From NCBI GenBank assembly GCA_004524595.1, contig SDOA01000012.1, forward strand, positions 1-55,938: a stretch of DNA of 55,938 nucleotides. The letters are read 5' to 3'. Origin of the DNA: Candidatus Thorarchaeota archaeon. GTDB taxonomy: Archaea > Asgardarchaeota > Thorarchaeia > Thorarchaeales > Thorarchaeaceae. Shown one piece after another: positions 30,265-50,842 of the stretch; the first letter of the stretch is position 1, and every line of letters begins with the position of its first letter. A program made the position numbers and the translations under genes. The notes beneath the pieces were generated by a model. The model saw nothing but the letters and a program-made list of their open reading frames with translations, made no database searches and was not told the DNA's origin.

Positions 30265-30385
30265 AATGGAGACTAGGTCCTTCAGGTTCATTTTTCTTCT
30301 TTTTTGGAAAGTATGACACATCCGATTCATTTATACGCAAGCCTCGTTCGAGCCGTCTCGTCTATCACTACTGGTGAGTGCGAGT

Positions 30386-31732
30386 ATGGACAAATACATA
30401 GAGAGTGTTTACAACAAGGTTGTCGAGAAAGACCCCGATCAGAAGGTCTTCCATCAAGCAGCATTGGAAGTACTTGAATCTCTCGAACCTGCAATCAAGA
30501 AATATCCAAAGTATCAAGAGTTCTCAATTCTTGAGAGGATCACGGAACCTGAACGTATAATTCAGTTTCGTGTACCTTGGAAAGATAAAGATGGTAAGAT
30601 ACAGGTAAATAGAGGTTATAGAGTACAATTCAATTCTGCTATTGGGCCTTACAAAGGTGGTCTACGATTACACCCAACTGTGAATCAGGGAATGTTGAAA
30701 TTTCTGGGATTTGAACAAATCTTCAAGAACAGTCTAACAACACTTCCAATGGGAGGTGCTAAAGGTGGTTCGGATTTCGATCCAAAGGGTAAAACTGACG
30801 CAGAAGTTGAGAGCTTCTGTGAGAGTTTTATGATTGAACTGTATCGCCATATTGGTCAGTTTATTGATGTACCTGCTGGAGACATCGGTGTAGGTGCACG
30901 CGAAATTGGCTATCTTTATGGAGCATTTAGAAAGATCACAAACGACCATGGTACCTGTGTCTTAACAGGAAAAGGTGGTGGTTGGGGTGGGTCATTAATT
31001 CGACCTCAGGCCACTGGATATGGCTGTGTATACTTTGTACAAGAGATGCTTAAGACGAAAGGCGAAGATATGAAAGGCAAGACTGTTTGTGTTTCGGGCT
31101 CTGGTAACGTTGCTCAATATGCTACTCAGAAGTGTATTCAACTTGGTGCGAAGGTCATCTCACTAAGCGATTCAAGTGGTTGGATTCACGATCCTGATGG
31201 TATCACTCAAGAAAAGCTCGAATGGGCAATGGATTTGAAGAATGTTCGCAGAGGTCGAATCAAGGAGTATGCTGAACACTTCAAAGTTGATTATTCATCA
31301 TCAGGAAGTCCTTGGAGTCTCAAGTGTGATATTGCTCTACCCTGTGCTACTCAGAATGAAGTAGACGGTCAAGAAGCAAAAGCGCTTGTTGATAATGGTG
31401 TTCTTGCAGTTGGTGAAGGCGCAAACATGCCAACAGTTCCTGAGGGTGTAGAGATCTTTATTGAGAACAAAATCCTCTACGGTCCTGGCAAAGCTGCTAA
31501 CGCTGGTGGTGTTTCAGTTTCTGGACTTGAGATGGCTCAGAATTCTATGCGTTACTTTTGGTCTAGTGAAGAAGTTGACGCAAAGTTACACCAAATTATG
31601 CAAAACATCCACGCTAATGCTTACAAGACATCAGAAATCTTTGGTGTAAAAGGTAATTATGTCATTGGCGCAAATATTGCAGGCTTCTTGAAAGTAGCTA
31701 ATGCAATGATTGATCAAGGTCAATATGCATAA
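30386..31732 (+). CDS. gdhA: Glutamate dehydrogenase (hexameric, bacterial-type, probably NADP)
   Basis: Interconverts glutamate with 2-oxoglutarate and ammonia. About 448 residues from ATG 30386, with GGTGAG 8 bases upstream. Family landmarks: GYRVQFNSAIGPYKGGLRLHP (about 77-97), PMGGAKGGSDFDPKG (substrate-binding Lys), DVPAGDIGVGAREIGYLYG, and the nucleotide fold VCVSGSGNVAQYATQK. Ser in place of Gly and the length match the E. coli GdhA type (447 residues) rather than the shorter type typical of thermophilic archaea, which fits an origin in bacteria or a mesophilic lineage. TATA element cattTATA near 30327. Confidence 0.95.
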   Translation: MDKYIESVYNKVVEKDPDQKVFHQAALEVLESLEPAIKKYPKYQEFSILERITEPERIIQFRVPWKDKDGKIQVNRGYRVQFNSAIGPYKGGLRLHPTVNQGMLKFLGFEQIFKNSLTTLPMGGAKGGSDFDPKGKTDAEVESFCESFMIELYRHIGQFIDVPAGDIGVGAREIGYLYGAFRKITNDHGTCVLTGKGGGWGGSLIRPQATGYGCVYFVQEMLKTKGEDMKGKTVCVSGSGNVAQYATQKCIQLGAKVISLSDSSGWIHDPDGITQEKLEWAMDLKNVRRGRIKEYAEHFKVDYSSSGSPWSLKCDIALPCATQNEVDGQEAKALVDNGVLAVGEGANMPTVPEGVEIFIENKILYGPGKAANAGGVSVSGLEMAQNSMRYFWSSEEVDAKLHQIMQNIHANAYKTSEIFGVKGNYVIGANIAGFLKVANAMIDQGQYA

Positions 31733-31745
31733 TCAGGATAGTAAT

Positions 31746-31781
31746 GCAGGACCAACTGTGGTCCTGCTCTTTCTTCTTTTA
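31746..31781 (+). terminator. Terminator of the glutamate dehydrogenase gene
   Basis: GCAGGACCA (31746-31754) and TGGTCCTGC (31759-31767) form a perfect 9-bp stem with a 4-base loop, followed by a T-rich tract (tctttcttctttta). Confidence 0.8.
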
Positions 31782-31799
31782 GGTGCAAAGGCTTCATTT

Positions 31800-32405
31800 C
31801 TAACCTCTAATAATTTCCAAAAGTTCAGCCAATCTTCTTTTAACATCCGATTCAACTGTTCTTAATTCAGCAAGTTGACGAATTTGCTCGATTCTTTTTT
31901 GTCTATACTGTTCCTCAGAAATCTTCCTGCTTCTCCTCTCAAATTCAATCTTATCTGATTCTGCATTGATTTCGGTTCTTCGAGCTTCTACAAGATCAAA
32001 TCCCTGCTTTAGACTCATCCATTCTATCATAGCATGACTTTTTTCCTGCTCTATTCTCTCTCTTCTCTCCCGTTCAATTTCCATTTGTTTGAGTTGTTTA
32101 TTTGTAGCTCTAATCTCTTTCTGGATTTCATAGAGTCTTGCTTCAACTTCCCTCTTTACTTGAATCAATTGAGTTGATTCTGACCATTTCTGCTGGTATA
32201 ATTGAATATGTTCTTTCTCAGAAATAGAACCACTCTGGAGCTTTTTATCGAGTCCATTAAGTTCAGCTTGGACGTCATCTAGCTGTTTTTTGAGATCATC
32301 GTATGATCTTCTTAGGGATACCCATTCTACACTGTATTGTGAGAGTACTTCCTTTGGATCCATGTAGAATTGATCTTCTGGGGGACTTCCTTCTCGGTGG
32401 CTCAT
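31800..32405 (-). CDS. Coiled-coil protein built of two repeated modules
   Basis: 201 residues, nearly all predicted coiled coil. Two related modules follow one another: the first starts EWVSLRRSYDDLKKQL and has SGSISEKEHIQLYQQK, the second starts EWMSLKQGFDLVEARR and has RKISEEQYRQKRIEQI. Each is a helix, a short SHOCT-like IS-E-E-Y turn, and another helix, so an antiparallel hairpin seems likely. I do not recognise a named family. It may be a scaffold or cytoskeletal element. The neighbouring genes on both sides are metabolic. Confidence 0.65.
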   Translation of the reverse strand: MSHREGSPPEDQFYMDPKEVLSQYSVEWVSLRRSYDDLKKQLDDVQAELNGLDKKLQSGSISEKEHIQLYQQKWSESTQLIQVKREVEARLYEIQKEIRATNKQLKQMEIERERRERIEQEKSHAMIEWMSLKQGFDLVEARRTEINAESDKIEFERRSRKISEEQYRQKRIEQIRQLAELRTVESDVKRRLAELLEIIRG

Positions 32406-32552
32406 GGTTTCAGCTCTCCATCCTACTTTTTTTCTGAATACTTCAAGTCGATTTAAGACATTCTCTTTTACTTATGAACTCTACCTACTCATACCCATAC
32501 TAATATTGAACCTAATCTCTTAAGAGGTAGAATTGTATACAATAGAGCTGCT

Positions 32553-33629
32553 GTGAACAAGATGACTATCAAAATTAATCTTGTTTCTTCAGAAACAAAG
32601 AAGCCCAAACCTTCTGATGTTCTTAAAATTCCCTTTGGGACTGTTTTCACCGACCACATGTTTTCTATGACTTATCGAGAAAACAGGTGGTGTGATGCTA
32701 TGATTCATCCATATGGCCCATTATCTATAAGTCCAGCAGCTCTCTGTCTCCATTATGGTCAGGGAATATTTGAAGGGATGAAGGCGTACAGACGTGGTCG
32801 ACGAATTCTACTGTTTCGTCCTGAGAGGAATGTTCAACGGATGAACTCTTCTGCTAGTAGAATGGTTATGCCGACAATTGAGGTCGATATCGTACTTGAT
32901 GCATTAAAACAGCTACTACGTGTAGAACGAGATTGGGTTCCGGAGTCTCATGGAAGTTCACTATATATTCGTCCCACGATGATTGGGACACAAGCCAAGC
33001 TAGGTGTCAAGCAGTCTGATGAATATCTATTCTATATAATTCTAAGTCCAGTTGGTCCCTATTTCAAGGAAGGGTTTAGTCCGGTGAAAATTTATGTCAC
33101 AAATGAATATGTTAGAGCAGTACGTGGTGGAGTTGGAGCCGCAAAAACAATGGGCAATTATGCTGCGAGTCTAATGGCAGAAACCAAAGCGGCAGAGGTT
33201 GGCTACTCTCAGGTTCTATGGTTGGATGCTATCGAACACAAATACCTCGAAGAAGTAGGCACTATGAATGTTTTTGTTAAATTCGATGACGAGCTGGTTA
33301 CGCCGCCTCTCTCCGGATCCATCTTAGCAGGAATAACTCGCGATTCTGTTCTGACTTTGACTAAGGATATGGGTTTTGTTGTTAAAGAGCGTCAAGTATC
33401 GATTGATGAAATACTTGAGGGTATTGCCTCTGGAAAGGTTCAGGAAATGTTTGGATGCGGAACTGCAGCTATCATCGCACCAATTGGATTTCTTTGGTAT
33501 GAGGCTAAATCATATGCCGTGTCTAATGGCAATACCGGTGAACTGACTCAACATCTCTTTGACGAACTAACCGGCATACAATCTGGAGAGAGAGAAGACC
33601 CATATGGTTGGGTTGTTGATGTAGACTGA
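32553..33629 (+). CDS. ilvE: Branched-chain amino-acid aminotransferase
   Basis: Transfers the amino group between branched-chain 2-oxoacids and glutamate with pyridoxal phosphate. The 358-residue protein (GTG 32553 or ATG 32562) shows the class IV pattern: HYGQGIFEGMKAYRR, YIRPTMIGTQAKLG, VRGGVGAAKTMGNYAASL with the PLP lysine near residue 208, YLEEVGTMNVFV and FGCGTAAIIAPIG. This is the long eukaryote/bacterium-like BCAT2 type rather than the short IlvE of many archaea (about 290-300 residues). Together with the adjacent glutamate dehydrogenase it links amino-acid and glutamate pools. Confidence 0.93.
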   Translation: MNKMTIKINLVSSETKKPKPSDVLKIPFGTVFTDHMFSMTYRENRWCDAMIHPYGPLSISPAALCLHYGQGIFEGMKAYRRGRRILLFRPERNVQRMNSSASRMVMPTIEVDIVLDALKQLLRVERDWVPESHGSSLYIRPTMIGTQAKLGVKQSDEYLFYIILSPVGPYFKEGFSPVKIYVTNEYVRAVRGGVGAAKTMGNYAASLMAETKAAEVGYSQVLWLDAIEHKYLEEVGTMNVFVKFDDELVTPPLSGSILAGITRDSVLTLTKDMGFVVKERQVSIDEILEGIASGKVQEMFGCGTAAIIAPIGFLWYEAKSYAVSNGNTGELTQHLFDELTGIQSGEREDPYGWVVDVD

Positions 33630-33634
33630 TGATT

Positions 33635-34000
33635 CTACAAGTCGAATTCTTCTCGTTCTGCATCTGAAACTTCTGGTTCCTCTGAATCTAAAATGTCCCA
33701 AGCTGGTGGTGGATCAAGTGTTGGTTCACTATCCAGTGAAGGTTCAGACTCTTCTTCAACATATTCGACCATTTCAGGAGGGAATTCCTCTTCTTCTTCC
33801 TCCTCTTCATCATCATCCTGTAATCTGAATTCAGCTACAAGCTTCCCTTCCTCAATCTTCTCTAGTAGCAATCTGAACATTCGTTCAACGACAACGCTTC
33901 GACCTTTAGCTTCAAATTCAATGTTACCAATTTCAAATTCGACCTCAGCGTAGTCAGCTTTCTTCTTTCCTTTACTATCTGTAATTTCGTCCTCCGACAT
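33635..34000 (-). CDS. Acidic protein of unknown function
   Basis: 121 residues. The first 60 form a small mixed alpha/beta region (VEFEIGNIEFEAKGRSVVVE then RMFRLLLEKIEEGKLVAEF) and the remainder is a low-complexity acidic tail, with a run of eight Glu after DDDE and many Ser, Pro and Asp. Not recognised. It converges with ilvE, leaving five bases between the two stop codons. Its acidity, like that of the 13410 gene product, may serve electrostatic contact with a basic partner. Confidence 0.55.
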   Translation of the reverse strand: MSEDEITDSKGKKKADYAEVEFEIGNIEFEAKGRSVVVERMFRLLLEKIEEGKLVAEFRLQDDDEEEEEEEEFPPEMVEYVEEESEPSLDSEPTLDPPPAWDILDSEEPEVSDAEREEFDL

Positions 34001-34125
34001 GGTGCACGACCTGGGTTGGGATAGGTCTTTACCCTTAATAAACTGAGTAGCATGACCTAAATATGGTCACGGCGAAAGCATTTTAGTAAGATAATGTCAG
34101 TCAATAATCTCTCTGAGGTGTTCCA

Positions 34126-34632
34126 TTGCCATCGCAACTAACCGTTGATTACAGTAAGTGTACTGGATGTCGAATCTGTGAATTGGCGTGTTCAGCCAAA
34201 CATGAAGGAAAATTCCAACCCAGCCTTGCTCGATTGAAGATTGTACGATACGATGACTTAGGATTAGATGTACCAAATGTTTGTGGGCCGTGCGAAACTG
34301 CTCCTTGTGTTGATATCTGTCCAGTATATGCTATGCGTCGTGATCCAATATCTAAGATGACCTATCTTGATGAAGACAAATGCATATTATGTAAGTCATG
34401 TGTTGGAGCATGTGTGAATGGAGTAATTCTGCTTGATACCTATCGAATGCGAATTATCAAGTGTGATCATTGTGGGGGTGACCCTGAGTGTGCAAAAGTA
34501 TGTCCAACTGGTGCAATCACGTATGGTCCTGATACTTCCCTTTCCACAATTGATAGGCATGGTAAAATTCAGAGTTATCTTCACGAAATTGACAGGACTG
34601 ATAAATCACAAGGACTCAGTGGAGCTGATTGA
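34126..34632 (+). CDS. Four-cluster ferredoxin (4Fe-4S) partner of aldehyde oxidoreductase
   Basis: Electron carrier of 168 residues, TTG start with GAGGTG five bases upstream. Cysteines come in four groups: CTGCRICELAC (about 12-22), CGPCETAPCVDICP, CILCKSCVGAC and CDHCGGDPECAKVCP, giving ligands for four [4Fe-4S] clusters as in HycB/DmsB-type electron-transfer subunits. It overlaps or adjoins the following aldehyde oxidoreductase gene, which makes it the probable electron acceptor of that enzyme. There is no Tat or Sec signal, so the pair works in the cytoplasm. Confidence 0.9.
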   Translation: MPSQLTVDYSKCTGCRICELACSAKHEGKFQPSLARLKIVRYDDLGLDVPNVCGPCETAPCVDICPVYAMRRDPISKMTYLDEDKCILCKSCVGACVNGVILLDTYRMRIIKCDHCGGDPECAKVCPTGAITYGPDTSLSTIDRHGKIQSYLHEIDRTDKSQGLSGAD

Positions 34633-36524
34633 AAGTGGCTAATGGGTACACTGGAAAGATTCTTCGTATCAATCTTTCTGATAATAAGTTCCACATCGAT
34701 AGACTCCCGTTAGATTGGATAAAGGAATACATTGGTGGTGATGGATTTGGTGCAAAGCTTCTTTTTGAAGAAGTAGCCGGTGGCACTGATCCACTCAGTG
34801 CGAAGAACAAACTCATAATTGGAACTGGACCAATAACTGGAACTATGTGGCCAATGAGTGGGAGGACTGTTTTCATCTCAAAGGCACCTCTGACTGGAAT
34901 CTGGGGTGAAAGCCATGTCGGTGGTTTCTTAGGTGCAGAGCTTAAGTATGCAGGTTATGACATGCTTATAATTGAAGGGAAATCAGAGAAACCTGTTTAC
35001 ATCAGTATCGATGATTCAGATTTACAAATAATCGATGCAAAAGATTTCTGGGGCATGACCACAAACACGGTGACTGGTGCAATCAAGAAAAAACATCGAG
35101 ATCCTGATATTCAAATTGCAGCTATTGGACCAGCAGGTGAACGTAAAGTCCGTTTTGCATCAGTAATTGTCAATCTTGCTAGAGCTGCAGGAAGAACAGG
35201 AATGGGCGCAGTTCTTGGGAGCAAGAATGTAAAAGCAGTAGCTGTCAGAGGACAAGGTGCAGTTGAAGTTTTTGATCACGAAGGCTTCTTTGAATTAGCA
35301 AAGAGAGCTCACATGAAAGTTAGAACTAATCCTCAGGCCAGAGAAATGAGTAAGTATGGGACTTGGGTCCTTACTGCTGTTAAACAGGAGATTGGCGAAC
35401 TACCAACCTACAATCATCAAACTGGTGTTTTTGACGGTTGGGAGAAACTGAGTGGCGATTACATTCGTCCTAGGTACACGATATCAGATAGAGCCTGTTT
35501 TGGTTGTAGTCTTGGATGTAAGAAGGTAAATTATGTTCGAGATGGTCCATTCGCTGGAACGCTAGAGGAGGGACCTGAATATGAGGGGCTCATGGCATTT
35601 GGTAGTTCGCTTGGTATCGATGATTACGCAACCACTTTGAAGGCAAATCAGATCTGTAATAGGGCTGGAATGGATATCATCTCTGCAGGAGCAACAATCG
35701 GATTTGCTATCGAGTCTTTTGTGAAGGGTGCAATCACTGAAAACGATACAGGCGGTCTCAACCTTCAGTGGGGTGATAGAGAACAGGTCATTAGGTTACT
35801 TCAGATGATGGCTGACAGAGATGGTTTTGGAGACCTGTTGGCAGAAGGTAGTGCAAGGGCTGCTGAAAAGTTGGGACGTGGAACTGAGAAATATGCTATT
35901 CACGTTAAGAGAATGGAAGTATCTGGACAAGATGGTCGTACTCATAGAAGTATAGGTCTCGGGCATGCAACAGCAGCTCGAGGAGCTGACCATCTAAGAA
36001 GTTTAGTTGTTGTCGATCAACTCGGATATGAAGATGTTGCAGCTAAGCGGTGGGGTGCAGATAAGCTGCCCGAGATTATTGATCCATATACTGAGAAATA
36101 CAAGGCAAATGCGGTCTTTGAATCAGAGAATGCATACTGTATCCGCGATACTCTAATTGTCTGTTGGTATTCTGTTTCTTGGCCACCGATATTCTGGATG
36201 GAGGATTTTGCTGAGATGCTCCCACTGGCGACCGGTATCAGTCATTTTGGTAAGATTGAAAATCTTACTAGAATTGCAGAACGTCAAGTGACACTAAAGC
36301 GTCTCTTCAATGCTCGAGAAGGGATTACAAAGAAGGATGACCAATTACCAGACAGATTCACTAAGGACCCAATGCCTGATGGTCCTGGAAAAGGACAGAT
36401 TGTTGATTTAGAACCTATGTTACGGGATTATTACACCTTACGGGGATGGGATCTAGAAACTGGTCTTCCGACTGAGAAAACAATAAAGAAACTATCTTTA
36501 GAGTGGGCCAGTGCCCACTTCTAA
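34629..36524 (+). CDS. Aldehyde:ferredoxin oxidoreductase family (tungsten enzyme)
   Basis: Oxidises an aldehyde to the acid with tungstopterin and passes electrons to ferredoxin. The 631-residue protein shows MKVANGYTGKILRINLSDNK, GPITGTMWPMSGR, the tungstopterin-binding region IGPAGERKVRFASV and GRTGMGAVLGSKNVKAVAVRG, and the cluster-binding CFGCSLGCKKV (near 287-297) with a later Cys in RDTLIVC. Start is TTG 34629, overlapping the ferredoxin stop, or GTG 34635; GGAG upstream serves both. Substrate within the family (aldehyde, formaldehyde, glyceraldehyde-3-phosphate) is not readable; length fits AOR/FOR. Formaldehyde would fit the Fae fusions in this window, as speculation. Confidence 0.93.
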   Translation: MKVANGYTGKILRINLSDNKFHIDRLPLDWIKEYIGGDGFGAKLLFEEVAGGTDPLSAKNKLIIGTGPITGTMWPMSGRTVFISKAPLTGIWGESHVGGFLGAELKYAGYDMLIIEGKSEKPVYISIDDSDLQIIDAKDFWGMTTNTVTGAIKKKHRDPDIQIAAIGPAGERKVRFASVIVNLARAAGRTGMGAVLGSKNVKAVAVRGQGAVEVFDHEGFFELAKRAHMKVRTNPQAREMSKYGTWVLTAVKQEIGELPTYNHQTGVFDGWEKLSGDYIRPRYTISDRACFGCSLGCKKVNYVRDGPFAGTLEEGPEYEGLMAFGSSLGIDDYATTLKANQICNRAGMDIISAGATIGFAIESFVKGAITENDTGGLNLQWGDREQVIRLLQMMADRDGFGDLLAEGSARAAEKLGRGTEKYAIHVKRMEVSGQDGRTHRSIGLGHATAARGADHLRSLVVVDQLGYEDVAAKRWGADKLPEIIDPYTEKYKANAVFESENAYCIRDTLIVCWYSVSWPPIFWMEDFAEMLPLATGISHFGKIENLTRIAERQVTLKRLFNAREGITKKDDQLPDRFTKDPMPDGPGKGQIVDLEPMLRDYYTLRGWDLETGLPTEKTIKKLSLEWASAHF

Positions 36525-40414: not shown

Positions 40415-40520
40415 ATGGAATGCCTTACACGCAAGCTAGATTCAAATGATAGCACATAGTCATTATACAAACCTCAGTGTCACACATACGAATAGATTGG
40501 TCAAGTATGGAGGACTACAT

Positions 40521-43163
40521 TTGAGCACGAACAAACGAACTGATGTACAAGCTCCAAGTACAGTAGAAGCCATCAGAATGGCATCAGCTTCAGTCTTGGG
40601 GTCTACTATGGGTCTTGGTTATCCGGTTGGAAGTGCAATCGGAACTGGTAGTATGTTAGAACAGCATTCTGATACCGTTTCAATGAATATTGCTCCCTTG
40701 ATTTTCCATATTCGTGATACAGTACAGTCCTCAGAAGGTTTAGAATTACTTGCAATCGAATGGAATTTGGAACGGACTCCTGGACCCGGGGTATTACCTG
40801 AACAATTGATTATCGCGGGTGGTGCAGAGGGTGGTGTTGGTTCCCATGTTTGTATCCTCTGTTGGGAAAAGGGTGTTGTTGATCCTTTCAAAATCGATAA
40901 TTATGTGAAGGTCCTCTCTAAAAAAATTGGAGATATTGAGCGAATTGTGATCAATAATGAGATGAATTATGAACTTGAAGGATTATCAGTAATTCAGCGG
41001 TTTGCAGATAGGCTGAATAGTGTCATGTTTGTTGACATTATAGACAGACGATTTCAGGGTTCTTGGGATTCTTTTCAAATGAAAAAAGAAAATGTAGATG
41101 TTGATGTAATAGCAAAAATGTCCATCTATGACGATTTTACGATTCTTCCACCAAGTATGAAGATATCACATAGACAAAGTTTAGACTTTAAATTACCATC
41201 AACCACTGGCGATATTGTAGAACATTTCAAACATAGAGTTCTAACTCCTAGTGCAATAGAACTCCTAACAAAAACCGTACCTGAAACTGGTTGCGAGATA
41301 TTGACAGAGTTGAATACATACGCCTATGCTATGGAGGAGGCTGATGTTGTAGAAGGAGTGATTGATGTCCTTACGGAGTTCCTTCAAAGAGACTCGATTA
41401 CATTAGTAGATTTTAATTCGTTGCAGAACAAAATTGATGATTTTGTAAGACTCTTTGCTGAAACTGTTAATACACTAGAGTATCTTGTTGAAACTCATAT
41501 TAGCTCAGGCAAAATTCTCAATGTTGCTGGGCACAGGGAAGCTCTACTTAGTGATATAGAAAGTAATATCGATAAATTTGAGGGAATAAGACATCAACTT
41601 GCTAAAGAGCTAGTCAAGAAGTTCATGTTATCAGTTGAACGCGAATCGATGAGCAATAACGAAATACGAGCATGGCAACTTAGGGGATCCTTGAGCTATG
41701 CTGTTGCCTATGCGAACAAAGTTACTCAGTACTTCTCGAAGGAATTGAATCAGTACCTTGTTGTTTCTGCTGCTCGAGAATCATTCTTTACGGCACTTCG
41801 TGAATTCCGTAGTGAAACAATAACCGATGGAATGGACTCAACTGATATGATGTTATTCGAGAAATTCTATGCTGAAGTCCAGTCGCAGTTGAATGCATCT
41901 TTCTCAAAACGTTCATACAAAGGAGTACAATATTCGGATTATATCGAGCTTATGGATGCAATCACCCGTGAGATGATTGACACTTTCAAACATATTGATG
42001 TCTGGAACTTGATTGGTTTTTCCGACGTTGCTGAAATAGCCAAAGCTGAAATTAAAAAGAAATATTCCACACCACAATCTGATGAGTCACTAACGGATAT
42101 TGGTCAAGCAATTATGGATATATTAACCGAGTTTGAAATTACAGTCACTGAAATTATACCAGATGTAGCTGATACCATTCTTTCAAAACCGCTTATTCGT
42201 AAAATGGTTGACCAAATGAAATCAGATGGTAGTAGTTTAAGTGATGTCTTAAGTAATGCAGTTGAAAGTGTTGGTGAGAAATCCAATGAGTGGAATAAAG
42301 AAGCACTCAGTTGGGTTGAGGGCTTTAAAGAGAGCGTTGATGGAACCAAATCAGAAGCAGAGTCATTACTAGCATTATTACAATTCGTGCATGAGCTCTT
42401 AGGCCAAGCTATTACTGCAAGTTCAATTGCAGATCGCGTTAAAATCGAAGCTGATAGAAGAGAGGTCATCTTCCAAACACAATTTAGGGCATGGGAGGAA
42501 GAGTGCCGTGAAATTGATACTGAGAATCAAAGCATTAGGCAACATAATCAGAATCGTGATGACCTGCTCGATCAAGCGACAAAGACTTTCGAAAATGAGA
42601 TGATAGCATACGAACAAGCTAATAAAGAATATCAAGAAAAAATCGAGCAGTATCAGGAAAGAATCGAAGAAGCCAGAGCTAGTGAAACAGGATATACTGG
42701 TGATCTACCTCCACCACCACTTGAACCAGAACGACCATCACCACTTGAACCACGAATTGAATCCATCAAGAGAGAGCATCCTGTTGAACAAGAAAAGAGT
42801 TTCCCTCCTGAACCCAAGCCAGAACCATCTCTTCGTTACTATGTTGAACTCCGGGACTTAATTTATGATAAACTGACTGAGATGAAAGAGCGAGAGTCGA
42901 CCATGGAAGATACATTTGCCAGGCGTGTCCTTAGATTACAGGCCGAAGGACTAACCGCTATTAGCACTATCAACATAAACATCGGTGATGGTTTTTTGGA
43001 GTATCTTATGGATTCAAGAATACGAAGTCTCGGTAGATTATTACCTCGTATATCACGAGTCTACCTTCGCGACCCCAAATTATCCAATCTTTTGTATTTG
43101 GTAATATATGAACATTACAACGATAGTATGACAATGTCTATCGGGAGTACCTTTCTGAGGTGA
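40521..43163 (+). CDS. Large helical protein of unknown function (first of a two-gene unit)
   Basis: 880 residues from TTG 40521, chosen because TGGAGGA lies six bases before it; an ATG 75 bases upstream has no such site. I do not recognise it. The first 230 residues have beta-rich segments (LELLAIEWNLERTPGPGVL, EQLIIAGGAEGGVGSHVCIL), then come long amphipathic helices with coiled-coil stretches (IFQTQFRAWEEECREIDTEN and ENEMIAYEQANKEYQEKIEQ). A Pro-rich hinge at about 730-780 includes LPPPPLEPERPSPLEP. The last 90 residues are again helical. No signal peptide or membrane helix. The partner gene begins four bases after its stop. Confidence 0.75.
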   Translation: MSTNKRTDVQAPSTVEAIRMASASVLGSTMGLGYPVGSAIGTGSMLEQHSDTVSMNIAPLIFHIRDTVQSSEGLELLAIEWNLERTPGPGVLPEQLIIAGGAEGGVGSHVCILCWEKGVVDPFKIDNYVKVLSKKIGDIERIVINNEMNYELEGLSVIQRFADRLNSVMFVDIIDRRFQGSWDSFQMKKENVDVDVIAKMSIYDDFTILPPSMKISHRQSLDFKLPSTTGDIVEHFKHRVLTPSAIELLTKTVPETGCEILTELNTYAYAMEEADVVEGVIDVLTEFLQRDSITLVDFNSLQNKIDDFVRLFAETVNTLEYLVETHISSGKILNVAGHREALLSDIESNIDKFEGIRHQLAKELVKKFMLSVERESMSNNEIRAWQLRGSLSYAVAYANKVTQYFSKELNQYLVVSAARESFFTALREFRSETITDGMDSTDMMLFEKFYAEVQSQLNASFSKRSYKGVQYSDYIELMDAITREMIDTFKHIDVWNLIGFSDVAEIAKAEIKKKYSTPQSDESLTDIGQAIMDILTEFEITVTEIIPDVADTILSKPLIRKMVDQMKSDGSSLSDVLSNAVESVGEKSNEWNKEALSWVEGFKESVDGTKSEAESLLALLQFVHELLGQAITASSIADRVKIEADRREVIFQTQFRAWEEECREIDTENQSIRQHNQNRDDLLDQATKTFENEMIAYEQANKEYQEKIEQYQERIEEARASETGYTGDLPPPPLEPERPSPLEPRIESIKREHPVEQEKSFPPEPKPEPSLRYYVELRDLIYDKLTEMKERESTMEDTFARRVLRLQAEGLTAISTININIGDGFLEYLMDSRIRSLGRLLPRISRVYLRDPKLSNLLYLVIYEHYNDSMTMSIGSTFLR

Positions 43164-43167
43164 TATT

Positions 43168-45618
43168 ATGTCAAGTTCGTGGGTGTTAAAGACTAGACAG
43201 GGAAGTGAGGCTGGAAAAGAGATTCTATTAAGAGAAGCTCTGGCTACTCATATGCGTAGTACTCGGGATAGGCAACTCTTTGCTGAATTATTACGAGAAA
43301 CTCAACCTATTGAGGATGTGTTCTCATTCTTTGCATCATTCTATCTACATAGCTATCAAGGAGTGAGATTACTGAATGCTAACGATGCTCCTCAATTGAC
43401 AACTGAAGGGACTGATGAATTAGGTCAAGAGGAACGTCGGCAACTAGAGCTTGAAATACGACAGATTTTTGATGACAAACAACGCGAGGAGATTGACACA
43501 GCTCGAATTACTAGTGAGTTGATTATTAGACTCTGCAATGAGTTAGCATCTAAGGATCCATCCTCTCCTGAATTGAAAGAACAGATTATCATTCTCGTCA
43601 AAGAATATTTGAGGAAGATACCCTCAGAATACACACCCAATCATGACATTGATATAATCCTCGAGGTAACAGGATGGGGGCAAGAATGGCGTGGTGATCT
43701 TTATACCAAAGCCTCTGGATTAAAAGAAAGTTCTCTTTCATTAAGAGAGGAATTGCTTCGTGACCATCCTTCTGAGGTTCCAGAAACTACCATTCTAAAA
43801 ATGGGATTAGAGAATATTTTTGGGAGGATTGAATATGCAAAGGGACGGCTTGTTGATGCACTAGTTCCTATAAAAAATTGGGCTGCTATTGCATCTGCAA
43901 TTATTGAGCGATTTTGTAAAGATGCCACCGCCCTTGACAGCATGAGAAATGCACACAAAATTAGACTCGAGCTTCTCGAAGTAATTGAGGAGAACTATGA
44001 CATTCCAACAACTATAGATGATTTTGAGAAACGTCTAGGTGAGAGAATTGTAGACCCAATAGCTTCCATCCTTGCTTCTAATCCATTAATAATAATTGAC
44101 ACTTTATCACATCTTTGCCATATCAACGTAGATGACCTCAAAGCACAGCTCCGTAGAAAAGGGATTGACGATCCTACGGTCATCACATCGGGACTAAAAT
44201 CTCTGACTAGTGTTGTAGAAGATTCTCCTTCTGGACCACAAGTCGGTAAAGATGAGATGGAGATGCTCGAACGTTCTCTTAAGACTCTTGAGAAAATAGA
44301 AAATACACTTGAACGACCTGTCAAAGGACTCCTGCGGTCCAAAGGTCTCCGTACTTCGGAGCTCGATAAAATCACAGTAGATCTTTTAATGAAAGATAGA
44401 ACGACTTTGGTTGGAATTGAGTTGGAAGTTCTTTCTGAACTTGAGAAAAAGATGCGGGTTCCACCTCCAGAAGAAGTCAAGAGACTTATGGAGATTCGAG
44501 ACCAAATTAAGACTGGTGCACTTAGTTCTCTTGGAATCTCATCAGCAAAGGACTTTAGTCAACAACGTGTCGAGGAAGAAACCATTGCTTCAATTCAGAT
44601 GGATGTCGTCTGGCATTTCACAACTGGTATCCTGACTAATCTTACACGAGTGGTTGAATCTTATATTAGATCAAAACAAGATTTACTTCGTATAAAGGCA
44701 CTTCTGAAGAGCATCTATGAAGATACAGATACCACGTTGCAATTTCTGCGAGAGGAGATTCTTATTGACTTAGCTTCGATGCGAATTTACGAGATGAAGA
44801 TAGTTCATCCTGAATTAGATGCGAGTACAATCTGTGCTTGGATGCACGCTCGATTATCAAGTAAAGATATGATGGCAGCAAAGAAAGATCTGGAGACTAC
44901 TCCAAGTCCAGTTTTTGAAGGAATTATGGACAAGTCACTTGATATGGAAAACTTGGAATTTGACAATTACGGTATTGCTTTTGATATAATGCAAAGATTT
45001 CTGAAAAAAGAACGTCTTGAGAAACTAGCTAAAGAAGAGTATGCCTTTGAAGTAAAGCAAAAGGAACAGAAAGCTATCGATTCAAGGCGCGAAGGTATAG
45101 ATGTCCTAATGTATCTACACAACAAATCTACAACTGTATTCAGAGCGATAAGTAGAGTTGGAACAAAGGGCTTAGAGTGGACCCCCAGTGATACAACCAA
45201 GTGCGCAAACCTGTTGGCCTACTATATCAAGACCAATAGAAGACGCCCCATATGTTCTGCTTGTGGTACAGTTCCGATAGACAGCAAATGTGATCAACAC
45301 GGTAAGAATTTCATAAAGGAAGCAACCGATATGGACAATCTTGCAGTCTTCATCATGCGTGGAATTTACGAAATTAAGGATGGCTTAGTTGGTACTGGAA
45401 AGGGGGCAGAACCAATGCCTTGGGATAAAGCAAAATCCACTATTGAACGAGAGATTGGAATGCTAAAGCGTAAGGGTAAATTGACATCTAAGACCAATTT
45501 GAAAGAACTCTTGCCCGGTGAGATTAATTACATAGTTGGTCCTGCTATGTGCACAATTATTGGTCAATACTTTAATGAGTCATTAGTGTATGCAGCTAGA
45601 CGTGCTGATATTGCATAG
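43168..45618 (+). CDS. Large helical protein of unknown function (second of a two-gene unit) with zinc-finger-like motif
   Basis: 816 residues. The ribosome-binding site GAGGTGAT overlaps the end of the preceding gene, so translation is probably coupled. Mostly helical, charged and soluble, with repeated leucine-rich stretches (for example LEEVIEENYD, LERSLKTLEKIENTLERP). Near the C-terminus Cys696, Cys699, Cys708 and His711 (CSACGTVPIDSKCDQHG) form a possible zinc knuckle, followed by an arginine/lysine-rich part and a final helical region. I do not recognise the family. Its size and pairing with an equally large helical partner suggest a structural or scaffolding complex; that is inference. 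Confidence 0.75.
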   Translation: MSSSWVLKTRQGSEAGKEILLREALATHMRSTRDRQLFAELLRETQPIEDVFSFFASFYLHSYQGVRLLNANDAPQLTTEGTDELGQEERRQLELEIRQIFDDKQREEIDTARITSELIIRLCNELASKDPSSPELKEQIIILVKEYLRKIPSEYTPNHDIDIILEVTGWGQEWRGDLYTKASGLKESSLSLREELLRDHPSEVPETTILKMGLENIFGRIEYAKGRLVDALVPIKNWAAIASAIIERFCKDATALDSMRNAHKIRLELLEVIEENYDIPTTIDDFEKRLGERIVDPIASILASNPLIIIDTLSHLCHINVDDLKAQLRRKGIDDPTVITSGLKSLTSVVEDSPSGPQVGKDEMEMLERSLKTLEKIENTLERPVKGLLRSKGLRTSELDKITVDLLMKDRTTLVGIELEVLSELEKKMRVPPPEEVKRLMEIRDQIKTGALSSLGISSAKDFSQQRVEEETIASIQMDVVWHFTTGILTNLTRVVESYIRSKQDLLRIKALLKSIYEDTDTTLQFLREEILIDLASMRIYEMKIVHPELDASTICAWMHARLSSKDMMAAKKDLETTPSPVFEGIMDKSLDMENLEFDNYGIAFDIMQRFLKKERLEKLAKEEYAFEVKQKEQKAIDSRREGIDVLMYLHNKSTTVFRAISRVGTKGLEWTPSDTTKCANLLAYYIKTNRRRPICSACGTVPIDSKCDQHGKNFIKEATDMDNLAVFIMRGIYEIKDGLVGTGKGAEPMPWDKAKSTIEREIGMLKRKGKLTSKTNLKELLPGEINYIVGPAMCTIIGQYFNESLVYAARRADIA

Positions 45619-46050: not shown

Positions 46051-47448
46051 GTGGGAAAATTCATTCCTCAAGGTGTGATGCCTGCTCTCGTTACACCCTT
46101 CACAAGAGATGGTGATATCAACGAGGAAGGCTTCAGACAGGTTATCGAATATACAATAGGCAAGGGAGTTACTGGTGTAGTGCCAGCAGGTACTACCGGA
46201 GAATTCTCTTACATGAGAACAGAAGAACGCAAGAAACTCTTGAAATTGACAGTGGAATGTGTCAACGGACGTGTTCCTATTATTGCAGGTACTGGTCAAC
46301 ACAGTACTCGTGCAACTGTTGAACTGACGAGGTATGCAGCTAATGTAGGTTGTGATGCTGCACTTGTGATTTCACCTTACTATCTTCGACCTGCAGATAA
46401 GGGCTATTATGATCATTATGCCACTGTAGCTACAAAGGGAGACCTACCAATCATTTTGTACAATCTTCCGCAATGTACTCTCGGGGTTCTTAACTCAAAT
46501 GTCGTTGAGGATTTAGCAGAGTTGGATACAGTTGTTGGTATCAAGGATAGCAGTGGTAATGTGCCGTACATGCTAGAACTAATACAGAAGCTCAAAGGGA
46601 AAATCGAAGTCCTCTGTGGTGCTGATGAGTGTTTCCTTTCATCCATCGTAGCTGGCTCAAATGCTGCTATCATGGCTTCTGCAAATGTTATTCCCCATAT
46701 CTGGCTTGAAGTCATGAAACTTGCAAAAGAAGGAAATCTTGAAAAAGCTGCAGAATTACAACGAGAGGCTCAGACTTTTGCTAGGATGGCACTGAAGTAT
46801 GGTGCAGCACCTCCAATCAAAGCTGCTTTGAGGATGATAGGTATTGATGCTGGGAGGAGTCGCATGCCTCTAAATACTGGCGGGACACTTACTCCTGAAG
46901 TTAAAGATGAGATTAGAATAGAACTTGAGAAACTAGGTTTAATTGATAAGAAAGTTCATGAACCTATACAGAAGGATATCAACATTGTCGAAGTGCTTGA
47001 GAATCAAGGCATCATTCTTGGACACTCTGCTAATCTTTTGACAGGTCAAGCTTCGAACGATATTGTATCTGTTGGTATTGCTGCAGGACCAAAAAGTGGA
47101 TCTATTGGCAAGGCATTTGTAAAACTACTTACTATGCCTAAGATTGGTCGTGAAGCATTGACGGTGATCTTGGAACCGAATCTAGCAGTAAAACCTAGTA
47201 GTTTAATGCTTCCGACTCGTAAGATCAAATCGATGCGACAGGCATCATTGTTCTATGGACCTGTTCAATCAGGAGCTGCAAAAGCAATTGCAACTTTTCT
47301 TGAAGTTGGTAAGATACCAAAGAAATCACTGAATCAAGATGTCATTATTATGGCATTGGATATTAATCTAGATTCCCGAGACCGTAGAGCGGTTAATGCT
47401 GCGACTCAAGAAGTTGTGGAACGAGCTCTCAAAGGAATTTGGAGGTGA
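46051..47448 (+). CDS. DapA-family pyruvate aldolase fused to a Fae-like domain (paralogue 1)
   Basis: 465 residues from GTG 46051, set by GGTGAT just upstream; the frame stays open to 45934 but that part overlaps cutA and its promoter. Domain 1 (about 1-300) is a class I aldolase of the DHDPS/NAL family: GTTGE (Thr48, Thr49), LYNLP (Tyr137) and VVGIKDSSG (Lys165, Schiff base). The position of DHDPS Arg138 is Cys142, so it is not an ordinary dihydrodipicolinate synthase. Domain 2 (about 311-463) matches formaldehyde-activating enzyme: EPNLAVKPSSLMLP and YGPVQSGAAKAI are well kept, but the catalytic His position in the AHxDL motif is Ser340 and the C-terminal tail is shortened. The next gene is its paralogue. 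Confidence 0.88.
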   Translation: MGKFIPQGVMPALVTPFTRDGDINEEGFRQVIEYTIGKGVTGVVPAGTTGEFSYMRTEERKKLLKLTVECVNGRVPIIAGTGQHSTRATVELTRYAANVGCDAALVISPYYLRPADKGYYDHYATVATKGDLPIILYNLPQCTLGVLNSNVVEDLAELDTVVGIKDSSGNVPYMLELIQKLKGKIEVLCGADECFLSSIVAGSNAAIMASANVIPHIWLEVMKLAKEGNLEKAAELQREAQTFARMALKYGAAPPIKAALRMIGIDAGRSRMPLNTGGTLTPEVKDEIRIELEKLGLIDKKVHEPIQKDINIVEVLENQGIILGHSANLLTGQASNDIVSVGIAAGPKSGSIGKAFVKLLTMPKIGREALTVILEPNLAVKPSSLMLPTRKIKSMRQASLFYGPVQSGAAKAIATFLEVGKIPKKSLNQDVIIMALDINLDSRDRRAVNAATQEVVERALKGIWR

Positions 47449-47453
47449 AATGA

Positions 47454-48932
47454 ATGTCAGATGTAAAATTTCGTTTTCAAGGTGTATATCCTGCCCTAGT
47501 TACACCCTTTACAGAGAAAGGCATCAATGAGAAACAGTATCGAAAATTGATAGACTATGTGATTAAAGCTGGTGCTACTGGGATTGTTCCATGTGGGACC
47601 ACAGGAGAATTCACGAGCATGAAATTTGAAGAGAAAGTCGAAGCGATAAAGATTGCTTGTGAAGTTGCAAAGGGTAGAGTACCAGTTCTTGCTGGTACTG
47701 GCGCATCATACACAGGAGATGCGATCAAACTAACGCGTCGTGCTGCTGAGTTGGGTGCTGCTGCTGCGCTTGTTGTATCACCCTACTTCCTAAAGCCCAG
47801 TGCAAAAGAGATCTATGAGCATTTTGAAAGGATTGCCAATAACAGTGACATTCCTCTCTTCATCTACAATATTCCGCAGGTGACTGGTGTTCCACTGCAT
47901 TGGACCATGATTGACGGTCTGCGAGAAATCGACGGTATTGTAGGTCTCAAGGACTCTAGCGGAGACCTCATCAATTTGACAACAATCCTTGTACGGAGAC
48001 CAGAGAACTTTCAAGTTGTCATTGGTCATGATGAAGTTGCTCTTCCAGCTCTAGCGTCCGGATGTGATGGCGCTATTTTGGCAAGTGCTAATGTCTTTCC
48101 TGATCGGTATATCAAGATGCAATCAGCATTAGCAAGTGGTGACTTGAAAGAGGCTCGTATTATTCAACGCAGCATCCAGAAAACCGTCCGTATCTTTGTA
48201 AACAGTGGTGGCGGAATGGCTGTCAAAGCTGCATTGAACATGATTGGTGTTCCTGTAGGTGATGCCCGACTACCTCTACATGTTAGTGATTCTCTTGGTT
48301 ATGGTAACCTCGACGAGCTTCGGTGTTGCCTTGAGGATCTTCAAATGATTCCAAGAGGTTCTGTTGTCTTCAAGATGGGCAATAGGTCAATTGAAGCAGA
48401 GAACTACCCGAAGGCTGTAGGAATGGTTCCTAACGTTGTAGAAGATCTCACTCTTCTTCATGGAGAAGCCCTCTTTGGATCCAATACAGAAGTGGCACAT
48501 GTGGACTTGGTCTTAGGAATAAAGGATGGTCCAATGAGCGAAGCACTAGCATGTGCTGGTAAGATAGTAGATGATACACATCCCTCAAATATCATTAAGG
48601 ATTTGGAACTTACCACGGTTTTTGCTCCTACTGTTACAATTACTTCTGAGAGCCATAAAAAGATGGTTTATGAGGTTGCTCAGAAAGCTGTTGTTGACGC
48701 TGTGAAACGGACTATCACAGACATGGTCATTCCAGATGAATTGGTGCAAGACCTGATTCTTGCTGTAAACGTGTTTGTGCATCCTAGCGCTGCAAATCCA
48801 AAGCGTGTTCATATCAATAATTTCATTGCAACAAGACATGCAATTCGACGAGCAATTGAAGGTCGACAAACAGTAGATGAAATCATTGCTCAGAAGGACT
48901 CAGCTCGGCATCCATTTGCATACAATCCCTAG
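47454..48932 (+). CDS. DapA-family pyruvate aldolase fused to a Fae-like domain (paralogue 2)
   Basis: 492 residues, ATG with GGAGGTGA just upstream overlapping the previous stop. Domain 1 (about 1-300): GTTGE (Thr49, Thr50), IYNIP (Tyr138), IVGLKDSSG (Lys166, Schiff base); Val143 stands where DHDPS has Arg138. Domain 2 (about 335-492) is Fae-like: GEALFGSNTEVAHVDLVLG keeps the catalytic His (His349), and the C-terminus with NNFIATRHAIRRAIEGR and KDSARHPFAYNP matches Fae. It lacks the PNLPxKPxTL loop (after FAP it goes straight to TVTITSES) and the FGPAQ phrase is VYEVAQ. The losses are complementary to those of paralogue 1. Fae joins formaldehyde to tetrahydromethanopterin. Confidence 0.9.
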   Translation: MSDVKFRFQGVYPALVTPFTEKGINEKQYRKLIDYVIKAGATGIVPCGTTGEFTSMKFEEKVEAIKIACEVAKGRVPVLAGTGASYTGDAIKLTRRAAELGAAAALVVSPYFLKPSAKEIYEHFERIANNSDIPLFIYNIPQVTGVPLHWTMIDGLREIDGIVGLKDSSGDLINLTTILVRRPENFQVVIGHDEVALPALASGCDGAILASANVFPDRYIKMQSALASGDLKEARIIQRSIQKTVRIFVNSGGGMAVKAALNMIGVPVGDARLPLHVSDSLGYGNLDELRCCLEDLQMIPRGSVVFKMGNRSIEAENYPKAVGMVPNVVEDLTLLHGEALFGSNTEVAHVDLVLGIKDGPMSEALACAGKIVDDTHPSNIIKDLELTTVFAPTVTITSESHKKMVYEVAQKAVVDAVKRTITDMVIPDELVQDLILAVNVFVHPSAANPKRVHINNFIATRHAIRRAIEGRQTVDEIIAQKDSARHPFAYNP

Positions 48933-49426: not shown

Positions 49427-49714
49427 TGTATACACACAAATCGCGGTTAAGTAACCCAATCTCTCTCCCCACCATGCCTTACTGAAATGTAAGTTTCAGC
49501 CAACAATCAATATCTGGTGAATTACTTGTTACTATTATAATAGAGAATGGCAAATCTCAGCCTGCTCTTGGCTCGTCATCGCTATTGCTCAGCCAGGGGT
49601 AACTGCCTCATCGATTGCCACCTTATTCTAACACATTCTACCCTTATCAAATTGTTCACTAGGCATAACCTTCTTAGCAGTGGTGATTATTCTCAAGCAA
49701 GGGTGTTACCTGCT

Positions 49715-50842
49715 ATGAATGAATCTAGAGTTCTTTCCTTTCTGAAGGATTTGATTGCGACAAACTCAGAGAATCCTCCAGGCAGAGAAGACTGCGTAGC
49801 TAAGGTCATCCGAAATCATTTAGAAGCATATGGAATTTCATGCATATCTGTTGGACCAAGCAAAAGACCCAACCTGATCTTTTCCAGTCATGAAGGAGAA
49901 AAGGGAAACCTTGTTTTACACGGTCATATGGATACAGTTCCTATTGGAGACCCTAACAATTGGAAACATGATCCATTTGGTGCAGAGATTCAAGGAGGTC
50001 TTCTCTATGGTCGTGGTGCTTGTGACATGAAAGGTCCAGTTTCAGCTATTGTAGAAACTCTCATTCTTTACACTGAGGAAAAACATGAGAAGCCCCTCTT
50101 AGTTTTAACAACCTCCGACGAAGAGAGCGGATGCTCTGGAGCTGAAGAAGTAGCTAAAAGTGGCAGACTCTCAGGTGTTAAATTTGGAGTATGCGCTGAG
50201 CCTACTGACTTGCAGGTTCTGGTTGGAGAGAAAGGTATATTCTGGTTCAAAGTAATTGCAGAAGGTAAATCTGCACATGGTTCGAGACCCGAAGAAGGGA
50301 TTAATGCCATCAAAAAATGTATTGATGCAATTGAAGCTATTTCATTCAAACCATTTCCCCATGAAATAGATGAGCTTCTTGGGATTCCAACACTCAATAT
50401 TGGAATGATAGAAGGGGGTATCAAAGTTAATGTTGTTCCTGCTCATTGTGAGGCTCAACTTGATATAAGAACTGTGAAAGGACAGACTCCTGACTCTCTG
50501 ACAGATCTGATGAATGAGCGTCTTAATTCAGCAGGACTATCCGATAGAGTAAGAATCGAATATATCCATGGAAAACCAGCTGTTTCCACTGCACAGGATT
50601 CAGATATAGTCCGTGTTGCGAGTGATGAGATTAAACGAGTTCTTGGGACTTATCCTTCTTTAAGTGCAGCAACTTATGGAACTGATTGTTCAGTCCTGCA
50701 ACCTAAAGTAGGAATAACAAATGTGATCTGCGGTCCTGGTTCTATTGAACAAGCGCATCAACCTGATGAATTCATCAAATTGGAGCAACTTTTCCATTCT
50801 GTAGATATCTATTTGGGAATTGCTAGGTTTTTTGATCAATAA
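49715..50842 (+). CDS. M20-family metallopeptidase/deacylase (ArgE/DapE-like)
   Basis: About 375 residues from ATG 49715, family-normal length; the frame is open to 49547 but the extra 56 residues look noncoding. Zinc-ligand motifs: VLHGHMDTVPIG (His about 71, Asp about 73), GRGACDMKGPVSA (bridging Asp about 104), TSDEESGCSGA (catalytic Glu about 138) and CAEPTD. A dimerisation domain sits in the middle. ArgE/DapE-type enzymes remove acyl groups in arginine or lysine synthesis; which one applies is not clear. Convergent with larB, 9 bases between. Confidence 0.88.
   Translation: MNESRVLSFLKDLIATNSENPPGREDCVAKVIRNHLEAYGISCISVGPSKRPNLIFSSHEGEKGNLVLHGHMDTVPIGDPNNWKHDPFGAEIQGGLLYGRGACDMKGPVSAIVETLILYTEEKHEKPLLVLTTSDEESGCSGAEEVAKSGRLSGVKFGVCAEPTDLQVLVGEKGIFWFKVIAEGKSAHGSRPEEGINAIKKCIDAIEAISFKPFPHEIDELLGIPTLNIGMIEGGIKVNVVPAHCEAQLDIRTVKGQTPDSLTDLMNERLNSAGLSDRVRIEYIHGKPAVSTAQDSDIVRVASDEIKRVLGTYPSLSAATYGTDCSVLQPKVGITNVICGPGSIEQAHQPDEFIKLEQLFHSVDIYLGIARFFDQ

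Follow-up and report, generated by a model that had tools for sequence, protein, structure and literature searches.

Paired genes fusing a DHDPS-fold aldolase to Fae in Thorarchaeota, candidate subunits of a formaldehyde-handling enzyme

Introduction

What does a formaldehyde-activating enzyme (Fae) do at the C-terminus of a pyruvate-type aldolase, and why does a Thorarchaeota genome carry two such fusions side by side? The question is raised by two adjacent genes, here called A and B, on contig SDOA01000012.1 of Candidatus Thorarchaeota archaeon (GenBank assembly GCA_004524595.1). As a point of reference, the window is the whole stretch of DNA analysed, positions 1 to 55,938 of this contig (55,938 nucleotides, forward strand). 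A sequence-only reading of the window had proposed that each gene joins a "DapA-family" class I aldolase to a Fae-like domain, and that the fusion might connect the aldolase to the one-carbon (C1) branch carried by tetrahydromethanopterin (H4MPT). Our analysis indicates that the fusion is real, conserved and apparently undescribed. We propose that A and B would be the two subunits of a hetero-oligomeric, bifunctional aldolase that handles formaldehyde.

Architecture and coupling of the two genes

Gene A (46051..47448, + strand, 465 aa) begins with a GTG and has its stop codon at 47446-47448. Its frame is open from an ATG at 45934, and the GTG at 46051 is the start that agrees with the ten orthologues compared. 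Gene B (47454..48932, + strand, 492 aa) starts with the ATG at 47454. Pfam profile searches, with all matches over cutoff, recover a DHDPS domain (PF00701) in the N-terminal part of both products, at residues 7-276 of A (46069..46878, +; 1.2e-78) and 8-276 of B (47475..48281, +; 4.4e-73). The C-terminal part is a Fae domain (PF08714, gathering score 27 bits). In A, where it is degenerate, it spans residues 337-461 (47059..47433, +; 7.1e-26, 91.5 bits; profile positions 11-139 of 159), and in B residues 337-488 (48462..48917, +; 7.6e-28, 98.0 bits; profile positions 2-158). The Fae match is recovered when the C-terminal pieces are scanned alone, and the Fae parts also match the Methylobacterium extorquens Fae structure 1y5y (B 4.4e-19, A 1.7e-10). 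The proposed two-domain architecture therefore stands, with a C-terminal domain that is indeed related to Fae, and we consider the fusion in both genes practically beyond doubt. Scores with the NCBIfam model TIGR03126 (one_C_fae) remain below its cutoff of 118.05 bits (A 85.5, B 109.2), which points to divergent Fae domains. As a side note, the M. extorquens Fae sequence also occurs in nine PDB entries (8ub7 and related), within a chain of 290 residues called "Avd" that is presumably an engineered fusion.

The Schiff-base lysines named earlier, Lys165 of A (46543..46545, +) and Lys166 of B (47949..47951, +), are upheld by the aldolase alignment. Lysine occupies this position in 28/28 A rows, 29/29 B rows (the window giving one row of each) and 18/18 rows of the single-gene fusions that we found in other Asgard archaea. 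Together with the PF00701 match, this places A and B among the class I aldolases of the DHDPS fold. The AlphaFold2 model of gene A has a mean pLDDT of 89.2; in the Fae part, values by ten-residue block range from 74 to 96. A Foldseek search with the whole model gave DHDPS-fold chains only among the best 50 listed (target-normalised TM-score 0.90-0.95); the identity of the Fae part thus rests on sequence.

The two genes are predicted to be translationally coupled, in agreement with the sequence-only reading. The spacer between them is 5 bp, and a Shine-Dalgarno-like GGAGGTGA of gene B (47441-47448, +) lies within the last codons of gene A, 5 bases 5' of the B start. In other words, the terminal codons of A, TGG AGG TGA (window 47440-47448), contain the ribosome-binding site of B. 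A purine-rich A end recurs in the 27 orthologous loci listed (L020 not among them), each with a candidate B start 4-6 bp past the A stop. The last residue of A varies across loci, being Arg in 64% of the A rows. A Trp near the C-terminus of A is invariant in the 28 A rows, which the overlapping ribosome-binding site may explain.

Both genes are under purifying selection. The median ratios of nonsynonymous to synonymous substitution rates (dN/dS) were 0.049 and 0.104 for the aldolase and Fae parts of A, and 0.048 and 0.082 for those of B. They were calculated by NG86 from 11 rows, with six pairs per domain having a dS of 0.85-2; pairs with higher or undefined dS were dropped, and L009 and L027 were left out for the Fae part of A. 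Because dS is near saturation, these ratios are used for their order of magnitude only.

Distribution and origin of the fusion

In a scan of the phylum, Fae was detected in 152/227 genomes. Forty-three genomes stand out by low-scoring Fae matches, two in 42 of them and one in G213. These 43 are called Thor-type here; four further genomes listed with them (G204, G208, G215, G223) had no Fae match and are not counted. Most of the genomes are metagenome-assembled (MAGs), so that absence from a single one means little; G007 and G011 are chromosome records (L017, L022).

The survey for the two-domain architecture, suggested together with the original proposal, recovered the pair at all Thor-type loci that were examined; other Asgard archaea have the fusion as a single gene. 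With B as query against the genome collection, A was found directly upstream of B in 28/28 Thor-type loci. Three of these (L015, L018, L021) are labelled Lokiarchaeota or "archaeon", and contig ends cut A in L005, L008 and L020, and B in L006 and L023. In each of the genomes searched via 15 of the 28 loci (15/15), Fae matched two genes and no others, and these are neighbours as A and B are. Among the best 120 proteins listed for B, 116 contain both domains, and the names given are Thorarchaeota, Promethearchaeota or Promethearchaeia. A 29th locus found with B is a Fae protein of a Gemmata MAG (L029:4269-5249, +); there Fae (218.7 bits) forms the C-terminal half of a 327-aa frame, the first 160 residues of which have no Pfam match.

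Among the matches listed, the non-Thor genomes mostly show one Fae match of 200-240 bits, located in a frame of about 400-450 aa; a second one, of 177-209 bits and with a frame length of about 500 aa, is present in many of them. The shorter frames carry Fae at the N-terminus (30 loci), followed in frame by hexulose-phosphate synthase (HPS) where compared (e.g. G132, G140, G142), and are therefore Fae-HPS. Frame length guided the choice of twenty non-Thor regions: 18 have frames of about 500 aa, and the remaining two have frames of 570 and 295 aa. Eighteen contain a complete single-gene DHDPS-Fae fusion, one (L109) is cut by the contig end, and one (L108) encodes a different Fae protein. In the latter (G099:C36, - strand), Fae lies near the start of the 570-aa frame, which is longer than the 400-450 aa Fae-HPS frames. 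A single-gene fusion used as protein query returned both domains in 120/120 of the best proteins listed, named mostly Promethearchaeota or Hodarchaeota. Odd labels occur among proteins of this type, one Thorarchaeota (P0176) and two bacterial (P0128, P0134), possibly owing to binning errors. The named database entries for the fusion mostly read 4-hydroxy-tetrahydrodipicolinate synthase ("DapA"), and the architecture is visible in their domain annotations.

A and B probably go back to copies of one fused DHDPS-Fae gene, of the type found in other Asgard archaea. Trees of both halves, with 11 rows each of A and B (10 loci and the window) and 20 single fusions, separate A and B into clades with full support in each. 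Neither tree settles how A, B and the single fusions branch relative to one another, which makes a Thor-specific duplication likely rather than proved.

Complementary losses in the Fae domains

The sequence-only reading had treated the two copies as equivalent, and in this respect it has to be revised. Fae residues are numbered here by the 1y5y chain, the published numbering being 4 lower. The alignment holds 28 A rows and 28 B rows; the A of L020 (too short) and the B of L023 (cut) were left out, and the B of L006 is cut at its end. The catalytic His (chain His21) is present in 0/28 A rows, 28/28 B rows and 19/19 single-fusion rows, and Asp23 in 1/28, 28/28 and 19/19, respectively. In gene B of the window, this His aligns with His349 (48498..48500, +), which we take to correspond to His17 of the published numbering. 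The FxHP (FVHP), N133 (NN) and C-terminal HP (HPF) motifs are also kept in B and lost in A, and the Fae profile match of A ends at 134-136 of 159 in 15/15 genomes.

The central motifs show the reverse picture. P57-N58, P63 and G84-P85 are kept in A, with K or R as the first residue of KP, G in all rows and P in 96% of rows at G84-P85. P57-N58 and G84-P85 are absent from 28/28 B rows, and the P of KP is found in 39% of them. In the 50 other Fae rows of the comparison, conservation of these PN, KP and GP motifs is at least 94%. The single-gene Asgard fusions, which occur beside Fae-HPS, carry the complete Fae motif set. A further position, chain Lys70, is K in 30/30 Fae-HPS, T in all single-fusion and B rows, and T, V, A or others in A; we take it to be the published Lys66, a ligand contact.

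Conserved Fae columns (n=46) were defined on 30 Fae-HPS rows, 19 single-fusion rows and one M. extorquens row. Both A and B retain six of them, B alone retains 23 and A alone nine, so that 38 are kept by at least one partner. The strength of this pattern lies in its invariance across loci rather than in statistics. The Fae domains of A and B appear, from these alignments, to have degenerated in complementary ways. With the motifs split between the two proteins, a working Fae site would need an A-B interface. The Fae functions would thus be divided in Thorarchaeota, with B giving the catalytic His/Asp and the C-terminal motifs, and A giving the central motifs. On balance, we favour the view that A and B work as a heteromer.

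It is possible, though in our opinion doubtful, that the two proteins are bifunctional and independent of each other, B being the working Fae-aldolase and A a paralogue with a structural or regulatory Fae remnant. B keeps His/Asp, FVHP, NN and HPF and has the higher Fae equivalog score of the two, and the Fae part of A evolves somewhat faster and is the one with the shortened profile match, all of which fits a demoted A. Yet B lacks GP and, by the alignment, PN, both nearly invariant in other Fae rows and both kept by A. Moreover, A is itself under purifying selection and accompanies B in all 28 loci found via B, and G213 alone shows a single Fae match.

The aldolase domains and their likely substrate

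In DapA, Arg138 binds the carboxylate of aspartate semialdehyde. None of the 74 fusion rows with a residue at the equivalent column has this Arg; they carry C, V or L instead: Cys in 27/28 A rows (one gap), Val in 29/29 B rows, and C, V or L in 18/18 single fusions. At the Ser48 position, every row that has a residue carries Phe. The same Arg138 and Ser48 replacements appear when A and B are aligned to a DapA of known structure. What held of the "DapA-family" label is therefore the family, as seen in the DHDPS profile match and the Schiff-base lysine; the identity with DapA itself did not hold, and we state with high confidence that the aldolases of A and B are not DapA.

DapA uses Tyr107, Tyr133 and Thr44-45 as a proton relay, in which Tyr107 reaches into the active site of the neighbouring subunit. 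Tyr133 and Thr45 are conserved in the fusion rows. The Tyr107 equivalent is Phe in 29/29 B rows, and among the 28 A rows it is Tyr in 24 and Phe in three, with one gap. The Tyr107 of A could therefore serve the aldolase site of B.

With the semialdehyde clamp lost and Fae fused, the aldehyde of the reaction would most simply be formaldehyde, giving 4-hydroxy-2-oxobutanoate (2-keto-4-hydroxybutyrate) from pyruvate. Support comes from the lost Arg138 and from the lack of another Fae partner in Thorarchaeota. A convincing HPS was not found in the 43 Thor-type genomes, where matches to TIGR03128 reach at most 36 bits (35 genomes with weak matches to the end of the model, eight with none); in 17/17 other Asgard comparators, the same model matches with E-values of 7e-32 or better. 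The Thor lineage thus seems to have lost HPS, leaving the aldolase as the only fused Fae partner seen there. In M. hungatei, Fae fused to HPS is thought to capture released formaldehyde, according to an excerpt of PMC5241800. Such a reason for keeping Fae beside HPS is missing in Thorarchaeota. We consider formaldehyde a rather probable aldehyde of the aldolase, and 4-hydroxy-2-oxobutanoate its most likely aldol, as suggested by the fusion, the lost Arg138 and literature precedent.

A different hydroxy-2-oxo acid (of the KDG, HOG or YagE type) could be the substrate instead, in which case no formaldehyde would be released and Fae would bind a pterin for regulation, or another aldehyde. Loss of Arg138 and a Phe at the Ser48 position are what one expects of the non-DapA members of the family. 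The folds most similar to the gene A model include YagE (rank 7 among the matches listed), which the PDB labels a "probable 2-keto-3-deoxy-galactonate aldolase", and the chain Lys70 is absent from the single fusions and B. On the other side, the catalytic His/Asp kept in 19/19 single fusions and in B argues for formaldehyde as product or substrate, as does the fact that HPS, the known Fae fusion partner, works with formaldehyde (PMC5241800, in the part available). Overall, we regard a substrate of this kind as unlikely.

An ordinary DapA with an accessory domain, as the database names imply, is very improbable. Both proteins do pass the NCBIfam TIGR00674 dapA cutoff of 206.15 bits (A 219.5, B 234.1), a whole-profile score that tolerates the lost Arg138, and they are the only DHDPS-family matches in three of the five Thor-type genomes checked (G010, G012, G196). 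Besides the missing Arg138 equivalent, archaeal-type Asd (TIGR00978) is over cutoff in only 10/43 Thor-type genomes, a test of the archaeal Asd type alone that only 5/14 control genomes pass. In the other Asgard genomes G132 and G101, separate DapA genes with the Arg motif (YNSPHRTG, YNVPGRTG) lie beside asd, making the fusion redundant for lysine there. A lysine-forming DapA was rejected on these genes and on Arg138. Replacement of PanB (ketopantoate from 2-oxoisovalerate and formaldehyde), which by reasoning would likewise connect a 2-oxo acid with a C1 unit carried on a pterin, was rejected as extremely improbable, because PanB itself is present in 35/43 Thor-type genomes.

Metabolic context

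The suggested link to the H4MPT branch of C1 metabolism is plausible. Its marker MCH was detected in 153/227 Asgard genomes, including 40/43 of the Thor-type, and H4MPT-linked genes have been noted in Thorarchaeota (PMC5020050, in excerpt).

The fate of a C4 product is more tentative. Homoserine dehydrogenase was detected in 100/227 Asgard genomes and in 2/43 of the Thor-type, i.e. it was unseen in 41/43. Threonine synthase (TIGR00260) is over cutoff in 151/227 genomes, and the window encodes a homologue (18297-19460, - strand; NF006050, 492 bits against a cutoff of 303). Many Thor-type matches are about 500 aa long, and two that were checked pass two threonine-synthase models; since long copies also occur elsewhere as extra copies, this is weak evidence. 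Homoserine kinase (TIGR00191) is over cutoff in 0/60 genomes, including those with homoserine dehydrogenase, and is thus uninformative for a homoserine route. The rarity of homoserine dehydrogenase and archaeal-type Asd in genomes that have threonine synthase homologues would fit a homoserine bypass, and would equally fit threonine auxotrophy. A full version of this idea, in which A and B form an obligate heteromer with split Fae and split aldolase sites and, as a natural pyruvate-formaldehyde aldolase, channel methylene-H4MPT from the Wood-Ljungdahl branch into 4-hydroxy-2-oxobutanoate, which is then transaminated to homoserine, seems to us speculative and rather unlikely.

Elsewhere in the window (30374-36524), an NADP-glutamate dehydrogenase, a branched-chain aminotransferase and an aldehyde:ferredoxin oxidoreductase are clustered, as in amino-acid fermentation.

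Gene neighbourhood

Neighbouring genes were counted over the 28 Thor-type loci and the window (n=29), several contigs ending before the neighbours. The usual order is a metallo-beta-lactamase-fold gene, two large orphans, CutA1 on the opposite strand, A, B and an M20-family deacylase. In the window, the orphans are 905 aa (40446-43163, +) and 816 aa (43168-45618, +) long; neither has a Pfam match over cutoff, and relatives occur in 21/29 and 26/29 loci, respectively. The deacylase (49547-50842, +) lies 3' of the pair in 21/29 loci, at least 614 bp past B. A gene of the same family is also found near the single fusion in L099 and L100.

In 12 of the 19 fetched non-Thor loci (L092-L098, L101, L104-L107), the gene immediately 5' of the fusion is a different orphan, about 435 aa long; among the other seven loci, the contig of L109 ends inside the fusion gene. 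The orphan (e.g. L092:5647-6954, - strand) has many invariant residues and apparently shares an operon with the single fusion in these 12 loci. For one member, Pfam and NCBIfam gave no match, and a 12-member profile gave no credible sequence match in the PDB. The AlphaFold2 model of the orphan is poor (pLDDT 56), with no fold match at an E-value of 0.001. In those Asgard archaea, the orphan is probably part of the same pathway as the single fusion.

Discussion

The proposed mechanism starts at the N-terminal barrels, which would form a Schiff base through Lys165 or Lys166 with a 2-oxo acid, most likely pyruvate. The barrels would make or break a formaldehyde aldol, and the Fae domains would exchange formaldehyde with H4MPT as methylene-H4MPT. 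We consider the catabolic direction, from the aldol to pyruvate and methylene-H4MPT, as likely as the assimilatory one. The combined reading, a heteromeric A/B pyruvate-formaldehyde aldolase joined to H4MPT, has in our judgement about an even chance of being right, its parts not being independent of each other.

Several observations weigh against it. No biochemistry of the fusion was found, and the conserved neighbours of the pair name no substrate. Fae is pentameric and DapA tetrameric, so the symmetries of the two halves do not match. The complementarity of the Fae domains is statistically modest (Fisher p 0.048, on non-independent columns); eight of the 46 conserved columns are lost in both proteins, and label runs along the sequence were as few as observed in 131/5000 shuffles. 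The central region of B is gapped in the alignment, and its conserved HPSN may be what is left of PN at a shifted position; GP is replaced in B whichever way HPSN is read. Given the Lys70 to T change, the DHDPS-Fae class as a whole might bind another pterin or have a different role. The split of the aldolase relay is not strict either, as Phe at the Tyr107 position also occurs in 2/18 single fusions and 3/28 A rows. Nor is the HPS test clean, only 7/17 comparators being over the curated TIGR03128 cutoff. Finally, homoserine dehydrogenase occurs in 17/47 genomes with a single-fusion candidate (picked by frame length and score from the matches listed), so a homoserine-forming role is not uniformly indicated.

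How does the fusion compare with known systems? Archaeal Fae-HPS is the closest in kind, as it also joins Fae to an aldolase, in that case one whose aldehyde is formaldehyde. Other Asgard archaea carry it as well, and it is mentioned for Atabeyarchaeia in an excerpt of PMC11291895. The differences are that Fae is N-terminal in Fae-HPS and C-terminal in DHDPS-Fae, that the partner here is a class I DHDPS-fold pyruvate-type aldolase (PF00701) and not HPS, and that in Thorarchaeota the place of one intact Fae is taken by two copies whose motif losses complement each other. With stand-alone Fae of M. extorquens (1y5y/1y60) the domain is the same by sequence, whereas the catalytic His and the C-terminal motifs are missing from A, the central GP is missing from B, and other residues stand in place of the chain Lys70. 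The fold, the Schiff-base lysine, Tyr133 and Thr45 are common to the family of DHDPS and N-acetylneuraminate lyase (DapA, N-acetylneuraminate lyase, YagE); in contrast to DapA, Arg138 is lost, the Ser48 position is Phe and B is without Tyr107.

The reaction proposed for the fusion is known from another pyruvate aldolase, RhmA/YfaU, which makes 4-hydroxy-2-oxobutanoate from pyruvate and formaldehyde in the synthetic homoserine cycle (excerpts of PMC8879981, PMC7918591). That activity is called promiscuous (PMC8879981, in part), and the excerpts of both papers at hand mention no Fae fusion. RhmA/YfaU is a class II enzyme according to the available part of PMC7918591, so the mechanism would differ from that of the class I fusion.

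The Fae fusions that we found described are all Fae-HPS, which bears out the sequence-only reading, as does the literature on the fusion itself: no description of DHDPS-Fae, with or without a function, was found in the open-licence literature by titles and the starts of abstracts, a corpus that mostly excludes subscription papers. Systems of this kind, with Fae fused to a formaldehyde aldolase, are thus known already; what looks new is the partner, together with the complementary loss within the pair.

Across the Asgard archaea, relatives of the ancestors of complex cells, Fae is tied to a pyruvate-type aldolase, and we saw no other Fae in the Thor-type genomes searched. Database entries now named "DapA" would need another name. 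The paired complementary motif loss makes a good case for testing how a homomeric enzyme turns into an obligate heteromer. If the homoserine route is true, it would bypass the aspartate-semialdehyde route, which is seemingly missing from most Thor-type genomes, and would represent a naturally occurring equivalent of the synthetic homoserine cycle. If the pyruvate-formaldehyde reading is true, these archaea would have a direct carbon-carbon bond step between the H4MPT C1 pool and pyruvate, for which the literature, in the excerpts at hand, describes only an engineered pathway.

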